Source: Streptomyces griseus (GTDB lineage Bacteria; Actinomycetota; Actinomycetes; Streptomycetales; Streptomycetaceae). From it: 64,000 bases of DNA. The DNA is taken from assembly GCF_900460065.1 (NCBI RefSeq), contig NZ_UAVD01000005.1, forward strand, positions 62,001 to 126,000, written 5' to 3'. The position numbers were made by a program, and so were the translations under genes. Each line of letters starts with the position of its first letter. The first letter of the stretch is position 1. The notes under the pieces were generated by a model. It saw only the letters and a list, made by a program, of their open reading frames with translations, was not told the origin of the DNA and did no database searches. This document shows, one piece after another, positions 31,805 through 34,957 of this stretch.

Positions 31805-33001
31805 GTGGACCACCTCGCCCGCGCGCACGAGCTCCTCGCCGTCCACCCCGTCGTCGACGGCCACAACGACCTCCCCTGGGCCCTGCGCGAACAGGTCGGC
31901 TACGACCTCGACGCCCGGGACATCGCCGCCGACCAGCGCGGCCTGCTCCACACCGATCTGAACCGGCTGCGGGCCGGCGGGGTCGGCGGCCAGTTCTGGT
32001 CGGTGTACGTCCGCACCGACCTGACCGGCGACGCGGCCGTCAGCGCCACCCTGGAGCAGATCGACATCGTCGGCGAGCTGATCGCCCGCTACCCGACGCA
32101 CCTGCGCCGGGCGCTCACCGCCGACGACCTGGAGAAGGCCCGCGCGGAGGGCCGGATCGCCTCCCTGATGGGCGCCGAGGGCGGCCACTCCATCAACAAC
32201 TCCCTGGGCACCCTGCGCGCCCTGTACGACCTCGGCGTCCGCTACATGACGCTCACCCACAACGACAACATCGACTGGGCCGACAGCGCGACGGACCTGC
32301 CGCGCCTCGGCGGCCTCTCCGCCTTCGGCCACGAGGTCGTCCGCGAGATGAACCGCGTCGGCATGCTGGTCGACCTCAGCCACGTCGCGGACGGCGTCAT
32401 GCGCGACGCGCTCGCCACCAGCACCGCGCCGGTGATCTTCTCGCACTCCTCGGCCCGCGCCGTCTGCGACCACCCGCGCAACATCCCCGACGACGTGCTC
32501 GCGGCCCTCCCGGCCAACGGCGGCGTCGCGATGGTGACCTTCGTCCCGAAGTTCGTGCTGCCCGAGGCCGTCGCCTGGACCCTGGCCGCCGACCGGAACA
32601 TGCGCGAGCACGGCCTGCACCACCTCGACACCACCCCGACCGCGATGCGCATCCACGAGGACTTCGAGGCGGCCCACCCGCGCCCCGAGGCCACCGTCTC
32701 GACCATCGCGGACCACCTCGACCACATGCGCGCGGTCGCGGGCGTCGACCACATCGGCATCGGCGGCGACTACGACGGCACGGCGTTCACCCCGCGCGGC
32801 CTGGACGACGTCTCCGGCTACCCGAACCTCATCGCCGAGCTGCTGCGGCGCGGCTGGTCCGAGGGCGATCTCGCCAAGCTGACCTGGCAGAACTCCCTAC
32901 GGGTGCTGCGCGACACGGAAGCCGTGGCCCGCGACGAGCAGAGCGGGCGCGGCCCGTCCCACGCGACGATCACGGAGCTGGACGGGCAGCGGCCGCGCTG
33001 A
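31805..33001 (+). CDS. membrane dipeptidase (renal dipeptidase family, M19)
   Basis: A 398-residue zinc dipeptidase of family M19. Metal ligands and motifs: [20 protein letters not shown] (HxD), [53 protein letters not shown], and [20 protein letters not shown]. Family members cleave dipeptides including D-amino-acid-containing ones. The GTG at 31805 was chosen because it lies 11 nt after purE and starts the conserved part; an upstream frame overlaps purE and has no coding bias. No signal peptide, so it is probably cytoplasmic despite the family name. Confidence 0.93.
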
Positions 33002-33113
33002 CCCGAGCGTGCCTCGTGACGACACGGAAGATTCGGGCAATCATCCACAGTTCCTACGCAACCTCGTGTTAGGGATAGCGGGCAGGATTTCCCTCAACAG
33101 GAGGTACGCAACG

Positions 33114-33440
33114 ATGCGCACGAATCTTCTCCGCGTCACGGCCGCGCTCGGTACCGCGGTCGTCCTGGCCGTCGGCGGCGCGGGCGTGGCCGCCGCCGAC
33201 GGTCTGGGCAACGCGGGCATCGGGAACAAGGGCGTCGGCAACGCGGGCATCGCGAACACGGGCCTGGGCAACGCGGGCGGCTTCAACGGTGGCGTCGGCA
33301 ACGCCGGCCTCGGCAACTGGGGCTGGGGCAACGCCGGCATCGGCAACACGGGCGTCGGCAGCCACGGCTTCGGCAACTCGGGCCTCGGCAGCTCCGGCAT
33401 CGGCAACACCGGCGTGGGCAGCTCCGGCATCGGCAACTGA
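33114..33440 (+). CDS. small secreted pentapeptide-repeat protein (MPTR-like, GxGNx units)
   Basis: A 108-residue protein: signal peptide 1-28 (LLRVTAALGTAVVLAVGGAG, cleavage after AAA) and a mature part made almost wholly of about sixteen five-residue units of the form G-(I/V/L/F)-G-(N/S)-x, for example GIGNK, GVGNA, GLGNW, GVGSH. This is the XNXGX pattern of Pfam Pentapeptide_2, best known from the MPTR repeats of mycobacterial PPE proteins. Start ATG 33114 with AGGAGGT upstream; a longer reading begins at 33009 but lacks a ribosome site. Nothing else in the protein but repeats; function unknown. Followed by a hairpin at 33481-33513. Confidence 0.85.
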   Translation: MRTNLLRVTAALGTAVVLAVGGAGVAAADGLGNAGIGNKGVGNAGIANTGLGNAGGFNGGVGNAGLGNWGWGNAGIGNTGVGSHGFGNSGLGSSGIGNTGVGSSGIGN

Positions 33441-33480
33441 ACCGCCTCGCGCGCCCGGTCCGCACCGGGCAGGCGCCCCC

Positions 33481-33513
33481 GGGCCGGCCGCACGCTCCAC
33501 CGGCGGCCGGCCC
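33481..33513. terminator. terminator between pentapeptide-repeat gene and ugd
   Basis: GGGCCGGCCGC (33481-33491), 11-nt loop, GCGGCCGGCCC (33503-33513): 11-bp perfect arms between convergent genes. No U tract. Confidence 0.6.
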
Positions 33514-33613
33514 GCGTGCGTGCGGGCCGGGCGTTCGCCCGTGCGGCGGTGGGCGGCGGCGTCCGGGGGAGCCGGTCGGCCGGTTCCCCGAAGCCGGCCC
33601 CCGGACGTGTGGA

Positions 33614-34957
33614 TCAGGCCTTCGGGCGGCCCATCGCCCGGTACGTCCACCCGGCCTCGCGCCACACCGCGCTGTCCAGGGCGTTGCGGCCGTCCAGGAT
33701 GATCCGGCGGGCCGCCACCTCGCCCAGCTCCGCCGGGTCCAGCTCACGGAACTCGCGCCACTCCGTCAGGTGCAGCACCACGTCCGCCCCGCGCACGGCC
33801 TCCAGCGCGGAGTCCGCGTAGCCGAGCGTCGGGAACAGCCGCCGGGCGTTGTCCATCCCCTTCGGGTCGAACACGGTCACCTGGCCGCCCTGGAGGTGGA
33901 TCTGCCCGGCGACGTTGAGCGCGGGGGAGTCGCGTACGTCGTCGGAGTCGGGCTTGAACGCGGCGCCCAGCACCGCCACCCGCCTGCCGAGGAACGAGCC
34001 GCCGCCCACCGCCTCCCGGGCGAGCTCCACCATGTGGCCGCGGCGGCGCATGTTGATCGAGTCGACCTCGCGGAGGAAGGTGAGCGCCTGGTCCGCGCCC
34101 AGCTCCCCGGCGCGCGCCATGAAGGCGCGGATGTCCTTGGGCAGGCAGCCGCCGCCGAAGCCGATCCCGGCCCGCAGGAACTTCTTCCCGATGCGGTCGT
34201 CGTGCCCGATGGCCTCCGCGAGCTTCACGACGTCCCCGTCGGCCGCCTCGCACACCTCGGCCATCGCGTTGATGAAGGAGATCTTGGTGGCCAGGAAGGA
34301 GTTGGCGGAGGTCTTCACCAGCTCGGCGGTCGGGAAGTCGGTCACCACGAACGGGGAGCCCTCGGCGACCGGCACGGCGTACACCTCGCGCAGCAGCTTC
34401 TCGGCCCCCTCGCTCGCGACGCCGACGACGATCCGGTCGGGGTGCAGGGTGTCGTTCACGGCGAAGCCCTCGCGGAGGAACTCCGGGTTCCAGGCCAGCT
34501 CGGCACCGGCCCCCGCCGGAGCCAGCTCGGCGAGCCGGGCCGCGAGGCGGGCGGCGGAGCCCACCGGGACGGTCGACTTGCCGACGACCAGGGCGGGCCG
34601 GGTCAGGTGCGGGGCCAGCGAGTCGAAGGCGCTGTCGACGTAACTCATGTCGCACGCGTACTCGCCGTGCTTCTGCGGGGTGTTCACGCAGACGAAGTGG
34701 ACGTCGCCGAACTCCCCCACCTCCTCCCAGGAGGTGGTGAAGCGCAGCCGCCCGGTGGAGCCCTCGATCCCGGCGACGTGCCGCTGGAGCATCTCCTCCA
34801 GACCCGGCTCGTACATCGGCACGCGGCCGGTGGAGAGCAGCTCGATCTTCTCCGGCACGACATCGAGCCCCAGGACCTCGAAGCCCAGCTCGGCCATGGC
34901 CGCGGCATGGGTGGCGCCGAGATAGCCGGTGCCGATCACAGTGATCCTGAGGGCCAT
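33614..34957 (-). CDS. ugd: UDP-glucose/GDP-mannose-type 6-dehydrogenase
   Basis: A 447-residue NAD-dependent sugar dehydrogenase, most likely UDP-glucose 6-dehydrogenase making UDP-glucuronate for envelope glycans. Rossmann motif VIGTGYLGATHAAAMAELGF, catalytic-cysteine motif GFGGGCLPKDIRAF, C-terminal NAD-like domain VAVLGAAFKPDSDDVRDSPA and LHLTEWREFRELDP. Start ATG 34957 with AGGAG seven bases upstream. The family also includes GDP-mannose and UDP-ManNAc dehydrogenases, but the sequence pattern (PEFLREG, NSFLATKISFINAMAEVCEA) fits Ugd best. Confidence 0.93.
   Translation of the reverse strand: MALRITVIGTGYLGATHAAAMAELGFEVLGLDVVPEKIELLSTGRVPMYEPGLEEMLQRHVAGIEGSTGRLRFTTSWEEVGEFGDVHFVCVNTPQKHGEYACDMSYVDSAFDSLAPHLTRPALVVGKSTVPVGSAARLAARLAELAPAGAGAELAWNPEFLREGFAVNDTLHPDRIVVGVASEGAEKLLREVYAVPVAEGSPFVVTDFPTAELVKTSANSFLATKISFINAMAEVCEAADGDVVKLAEAIGHDDRIGKKFLRAGIGFGGGCLPKDIRAFMARAGELGADQALTFLREVDSINMRRRGHMVELAREAVGGGSFLGRRVAVLGAAFKPDSDDVRDSPALNVAGQIHLQGGQVTVFDPKGMDNARRLFPTLGYADSALEAVRGADVVLHLTEWREFRELDPAELGEVAARRIILDGRNALDSAVWREAGWTYRAMGRPKA

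Follow-up and report, generated by a model that had tools for sequence, protein, structure and literature searches.

At positions 33114 to 33440 of the window, a stretch of 64,000 nucleotides from Streptomyces griseus (contig NZ_UAVD01000005.1), lies an intact open reading frame (ORF) for a small protein of 108 amino acids (aa), in which a predicted signal peptide is followed by glycine- and asparagine-rich repeats of the MPTR type, known from mycobacterial PPE proteins. The gene and the elements around it are as follows.

33114-33440, forward strand: whole ORF including the stop codon, 108 aa, intact
33114-33197, forward strand: predicted signal peptide, 28 codons, cleavage before Asp29 placed by eye
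33198-33437, forward strand: mature repeat region, decapeptides [STWD]G[VIL]G[NS][ASH]G[I][GAF]N, from Pfam match and periodicity
33021-33025, forward strand: GACAC element, 93 nt 5′ of the ATG and 46 nt 5′ of the TGTTA box
33067-33077, forward strand: TGTTAGGGATA box, perhaps an extended -10-type promoter element, carrying the conserved TGYTA
33100-33104, forward strand: GGAGG ribosome-binding site, kept in 29 of 30 family members
33474-33520, forward strand: G+C-rich inverted repeat, likely terminator without T-run, 18-nt arms, 89% complementary

Judged by eye, the N-terminus is a predicted Sec-type signal peptide, in which M1, R7, G22, A26 and A28 are invariant (28 aligned rows). Cleavage between AAA and D would leave a mature part of about 80 aa consisting of Gly/Asn repeats only. 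The protein matches Pfam PF01469 (Pentapeptide_2, MPTR repeat) with E 2.2e-9, scoring 37.5 bits where the cut-off is 26.4. Up to E 10, Lamprin is the sole other Pfam family found (9.9 bits, under its cut-off), no PPE family is listed, and NCBIfam returns zero families. On its sequence, the protein is not a PPE protein. These results agree with an earlier note on this DNA, which had described a stand-alone repeat protein of the MPTR kind with a mature part of about 80 residues, a plain signal peptide, a strong ribosome site and no PPE domain.

Between residues 30 and 108, identity reaches 0.49 at a spacing of 5 and 0.65 at a spacing of 10. As none of 20000 residue shuffles equals the observed identity at either spacing, the periodicity is far beyond chance for this composition. 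GC content by codon position is 0.65/0.61/0.94 in the ORF (0.94 at third positions, GC3), and therefore supports coding in this frame. Antisense to the gene runs a 150-aa proline-rich open frame (33041-33493, reverse strand), a by-product of the repeats that we do not judge to be coding.

A small family with a ten-residue register

A scan of genome contigs yielded 45 loci: 29 intact members, a further member truncated where its contig stops (L073) and 15 loci from mycobacteria. By sequence, the window gene is a member of a discrete, intact small family. The titles of 28 of the 29 intact members name Streptomyces and the remaining one reads 'Actinobacteria bacterium OV450'. Member species include S. 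globisporus, S. parvus, S. rubiginosohelvolus, S. lavendulae, S. virginiae, S. goshikiensis, S. microflavus, S. cyaneofuscatus, S. roseus and S. toxytricini. Family counts below are out of 30, that is the 29 intact members and the window, representing 28 different proteins. The frame is intact in all 30, and the 28 aligned members all match PF01469 at E ≤ 1, the curated cut-off being shown for the window protein alone.

The repeat unit is a decapeptide, because identity at 10 residues exceeds identity at 5 residues in 30 of 30 members. The earlier note had read pentapeptide units of the form GxG(N/S)x: it had the kind of repeat right and the length of the unit wrong. When the register is counted from the C-terminus (180 cells per position), the consensus across the 30 members is [STWD]-G-[VIL]-G-[NS]-[ASH]-G-[I]-[GAF]-N. 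Gly occupies positions 2, 4 and 7 in 179, 180 and 180 of the 180 cells, and Asn position 10 in 179; several residues occur at position 1 (S, T, W, D, G, H). All members end in GIGN, none has a Cys in its mature part, and a GSHG motif near the C-terminus is present in 23, its His being replaced by Ala or Ser in the other seven. Lengths are 88, 98, 108 or 128 aa in 21 members, so that copy number changes mostly by steps of one decapeptide (30 bp); the other nine deviate by one residue, by a pentapeptide or through an extended or divergent N-terminal part. A decaying locus, for which the earlier note expected repeat number to change with frameshifts, is not what we see: all 30 ORFs are intact and the length changes are in frame.

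Conservation extends upstream of the ORF. Every one of the 30 members has TGYTA at -44 to -56, always with an AT three bases further on (TGYTANNNAT), and 21 have the longer form TGYTARRGATA. This longer form occurs once in the 8.5-Mb genome, at the window gene, and therefore marks no visible regulon. The box is perhaps an extended -10-type promoter element; no sigma-70 consensus promoter was detected in 32950-33650. GGAGG stands 14 or 11 nt 5′ of the start in 29 members, the exception being L042. GACAC is present at -90 to -95, 46-48 nt 5′ of the TGYTA box, in 17 members. PMC3781837 and PMC4850268 describe GACAC as the core of the sites recognised by WhiA, a protein that binds its targets mainly when sporulation begins, and count about 15,000 copies of the motif in one genome. 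The WhiA-like element hints at developmental control. Downstream, 23 members have a perfect stem of at least 8 pairs no further than 120 nt past the stop (counted without a shuffled control), and the inverted repeat at 33474-33520 is a likely transcription terminator. A scan of 32950-33650 for terminators with a T-run gave none, and no Rfam family reached its gathering score in 32900-33700.

Among 295 genomes sampled from the genus, 35 match at E ≤ 1e-4. Nineteen of these, own genome included, contain members (best E ≤ 1.6e-15) and 16 give weaker matches only (best E 8e-10 to 1e-4). In eight of the 16 (L023-L028, L030 and L031), no member was recognised among the inspected frames, a verdict that leaves L025 aside. 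Six of these loci (L023, L024, L026, L028, L030, L031) carry a common repetitive frame of the GVGTTGVGT type, found with the same C-terminus in several Streptomyces. Its GC content at codon position 2 is 0.72-0.74 (computed except for L026), and it probably results from reading a gene whose repeat tract varies in the wrong frame. Seven additional intact members were found (L011, L012, L014, L019, L020, L022, L080).

When genomes were drawn from the whole class, 17 of 394 gave a match to the family profile at E ≤ 1e-6. Four belong to the same genus, three of them with members (G000, G056, G656) and one (G547) with a frame of non-coding composition. For ten of the 13 genomes of other genera the best match lies in frames of at least 456 residues; three loci (L086, L087, L090) start with a motif that we take for the beginning of PPE proteins. 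A clear signal peptide was not seen in a short-framed match outside the genus (L093, in G301). Plasmid and phage collections gave zero matches at E ≤ 1e-5.

The nearest described relatives are the PPE-MPTR proteins of mycobacteria. The 15 mycobacterial loci match the family at 45-53% identity, their matches beginning at query residue 19 or later and none spanning the whole signal peptide, as expected for repeats that follow another domain. The Streptomyces proteins differ by the absence of a PPE domain and by their size, 87-128 aa versus hundreds to thousands. PPE proteins use type VII export, whereas the Streptomyces family has a predicted signal peptide instead. Within PF01469 the family is also distinct, since the repeat makes up the entire mature protein and keeps a clear ten-residue register. 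PMC4858275 gives the structure of the repeat as unknown and 95% of the Pfam members as mycobacterial.

The stand-alone form, which the earlier note described as a Streptomyces protein, is not confined to this genus. A 155-aa predicted secreted MPTR-like protein (L172, 1501-1968, in G615) is composed of a signal peptide resembling that of the Streptomyces family and then of Gly/Asn repeats only, with no PPE-like part; the mini-protein form therefore exists outside Streptomyces. It differs by more divergent repeats and by the absence of TGYTA from the upstream 120 nt. G615 belongs to a genus that bears PPE proteins, the same as that of the genomes of L086, L087 and L090. In this genus 21 of 148 genomes match L172 at E ≤ 1e-10; among the matches listed, only that of G615 is full-length, and G765 has a matching 163-aa frame without a clear signal peptide. 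We also considered IcmE/DotG of the Dot/Icm system, which the family profile matches with E 6.8e-13 over the whole chain but E 0.0095 for the best single stretch; the alignment shares a ten-residue Ala-Gly rhythm alone and was taken as convergence.

The family appears undescribed in the open-licence literature searched. The claim of the earlier note that nothing is known of such proteins stands for the family itself and needs one reservation: PMC1660551 mentions four repetitive S. avermitilis proteins, dismissed there as unspecific PE/PPE matches.

Genomic setting of the gene

Members of the S. globisporus group (L034-L037, L039) have a dipeptidase gene on one side of the family gene and, on the other, a hydrolase gene that Pfam assigns to the GDSL type in L035, with a UDP-glucose dehydrogenase gene beyond. 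In the window, positions 33531-33579 are a remnant of this hydrolase gene, which is full in L035 and its sister loci and otherwise lost in the window strain. On the S. durocortorensis contig (L034, 5340-5760), long homopolymer runs and Ns 3′ of the gene look like an assembly fault.

We searched for the dipeptidase-hydrolase stretch in 61 genomes, own genome included, and read the junction in four of them (G005, G019, G029, G023). The site was empty in all four; in G005, the dipeptidase stop abuts the end of the hydrolase gene. G005 has the gene elsewhere, beside an enolase-family gene, and the same site is used in S. cyaneofuscatus, S. microflavus and strain CB00316. For this second site a clean empty counterpart was not obtained in the window's genome, where its flanks match different contigs, the upstream one at 72% and perhaps through a paralogue. 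L049 and L062 share a third neighbourhood. With a crude gene finder and some loci truncated at contig ends, 19 of the 29 loci have no neighbour in common with another, save one non-adjacent gene in L043 and L051. Between species, DNA similarity at different sites rarely extends past about 160 nt 5′ or 120 nt 3′ of the ORF (rows for 8 of the 29 query loci, gene starts approximate), and L042, L044 and L060 have longer flanks in common. The gene tree separates the window clade (100/99) from the clade of the cyaneofuscatus site (90/93).

The same unit thus occupies more than one site, and relatives can lack it at a site where others carry it. From these comparisons the gene seems to behave as a one-gene cassette (promoter-ORF-terminator) and not as a decaying locus, the direction of change being one that we infer. 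The gene lies 58-305 kb from a contig end in G134, G054, G232 and G038, where the contig ends are probably chromosome ends, and in the interior of a contig in G005 and G225. Gene order in Streptomyces changes fast near chromosome ends, and rearrangement of the arms may explain part of the site differences. By eye, and in the absence of a dedicated search, no terminal repeat, target duplication or mobilising enzyme was seen at the window site.

A stretch upstream of the gene in L046 (3800-4690) recurs elsewhere in that genome (copies at 98%, 92% and 89%). It was considered as a flanking insertion sequence and dropped, its longest open frame, on the minus strand, looking like a secreted protein with what we presume to be a lamin-tail-like domain.

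Predicted fold and selection

The best AlphaFold2 model of the window protein has a mean predicted local distance difference test score (pLDDT) of 69.4, with block values of 75-84 over residues 41-100 and a strand of three residues every five residues; its other models range from 54 to 39. For the mature part of L050 (100 residues), the best mean is 75.6 and the other models range from 56 to 26. In this model, block pLDDT is 71-84 for residues 21-100 and the three-residue strand pattern sets in from about residue 36, longer strands being drawn before. The beta-helix raised by the earlier note is therefore plausible, as a solenoid of moderate confidence in one of the five models, the four others being poor. 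Altogether the models lend weak to moderate support to a beta-solenoid fold of the repeat region. In the four top solenoid rows of the fold comparison, 95-97 model residues are aligned over about 190 chain residues; if the matched chains have 20 residues per turn, as we assume, this suggests about 10 residues per turn. Four-sided pentapeptide-repeat proteins, whose square right-handed beta-helix has 20 residues, gave weak Z values (3.1 and 3.0 for the MfpA chains of 2bm5, 3.9 for HetL, 3.4 for AlbG).

In the virginiae-type group, the nonsynonymous rate (dN) is lower than the synonymous rate (dS) in six of six same-length pairs, with ratios from about 0.12 (L041/L046: 0.043, 0.360) to 0.53 (L054/L058: 0.089, 0.168). 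For the repeats alone of L041/L046, dN is 0.020 and dS 0.41.

Possible roles of the protein

Our proposal, which we hold tentatively and with less than even confidence, is that the gene encodes an exported structural beta-solenoid, an element of the cell surface or of the matrix. After export, the mature part would fold as a thin solenoid with about one decapeptide per turn, in which Gly at positions 2, 4 and 7 would permit tight packing and Asn at position 10 would sit at the turn. Secreted copies would probably stack end to end into a fibre or a film, either on the surface of hyphae or spores or within the matrix, and repeat number would therefore set the length of the subunit. Expression would be driven by the gene's own promoter, within a compact promoter-ORF-terminator cassette placed at different chromosomal sites between clades. 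We count in favour of this proposal the intact ORFs, the GIGN ends, the Gly/Asn register and the lengths in decapeptide steps, together with the export-type N-terminus, the AlphaFold2 strands, the solenoid spans and dN < dS in the virginiae-type pairs. The TGYTA box (30/30), GACAC (17/30), the empty sites (4/4) and the different locus in G005 are counted likewise.

Known surface proteins offer partial parallels. The curli subunit CsgA is also an exported repeat protein with variable repeat number and an AlphaFold beta-solenoid, as described in PMC10192328, an analogy only: curlin repeats are on average 23 residues long and have a core motif of the form N...Q. Chaplins and rodlins are surface-sheath proteins of developing Streptomyces (PMC3781837). 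Neither the curlin nor the chaplin and rodlin families are among the three families matched at E ≤ 1 by the 28 members.

Several observations weigh against a structural solenoid. Four of five AlphaFold2 models were poor in both runs (means 26 to 56), Foldseek with both models returned zero matches at E ≤ 0.001, and no fold match was significant (VIA-align Z ≤ 4.4, the chains matched including synthetic and pentapeptide solenoids). The gene has a patchy distribution, being present in 19 of the 295 genomes sampled from the genus and in 2 of 37 genomes of the same genus (own genome counted), and is therefore dispensable. GACAC is a very common 5-mer and is absent from its place in 13 of 30 members. 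Of the six pairs within the window clade, five have dN at or above dS and one has it marginally lower. The window and L035 differ by 11 nonsynonymous and 4 synonymous changes, the counts for four genes nearby being 49 and 182 (Fisher 5e-5); with L036, L037 and L039 the Fisher values are 2e-5 to 5e-4, and 0.001 to 0.03 for the repeats alone, these pairs not being independent. Five of the 11 window-L035 changes fall in the signal peptide, and many changes are conservative (V/I, A/T, L/V). Relaxed or diversifying selection in this clade looks like a better fit than strict structural constraint.

The main rival to the structural solenoid, rather unlikely in our view, is a secreted binding protein forming no fibres, whose solenoid side-chain ladders (the variable position 1, Asn and one His) would hold heme, a metal, a sugar or ice. 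The MPTR protein PPE62 is a heme binder with a beta-helix predicted for its repeats, but the accessible part of PMC5263243 does not map this binding to the repeats. In the same way, the GSHG motif kept in 23 of 30 members and the variability of position 1 would suit a ligand site, yet the His gives way to Ala or Ser in the other seven and no mature part offers a Cys; springtail antifreeze and ice-binding chains do appear among the fold matches, none of which is significant. A bacteriocin-like peptide for competition or signalling, spreading from strain to strain as a one-gene cassette, would account for a small, Gly-rich, apparently exported product with patchy distribution at different sites, and for the high nonsynonymous share in the window clade. 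We consider it improbable, as no constant partner or immunity gene adjoins it and 19 of 29 loci lack a common neighbour, with the crude gene finder used.

Low-complexity G+C-rich repeats readily yield open frames, and similar repeat-like frames elsewhere in Streptomyces look non-coding, so that the gene could also be a mere repeat-driven frame or a decaying remnant of a mycobacterial MPTR gene. Thirty intact ORFs out of 30, the conserved start, ribosome site, upstream box and C-terminus, and dN < dS in all six virginiae-type pairs make this very improbable.

Returning to the structural solenoid, its boldest version would be a transposase-free cassette moving among Streptomyces, coding for an exceptionally thin natural solenoid of ten-residue turns that leaves the cell at sporulation and forms, by polymerisation, a surface fibre not yet described, the tails of PPE-MPTR proteins being longer versions of it; this we regard as a long shot. 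An 80-residue repeat-only protein from non-pathogens would in any case offer a practical route to the fold of this repeat and to its role on the bacterial surface, and Streptomyces biology would gain a candidate structural protein as well as a compact gene that changes place.
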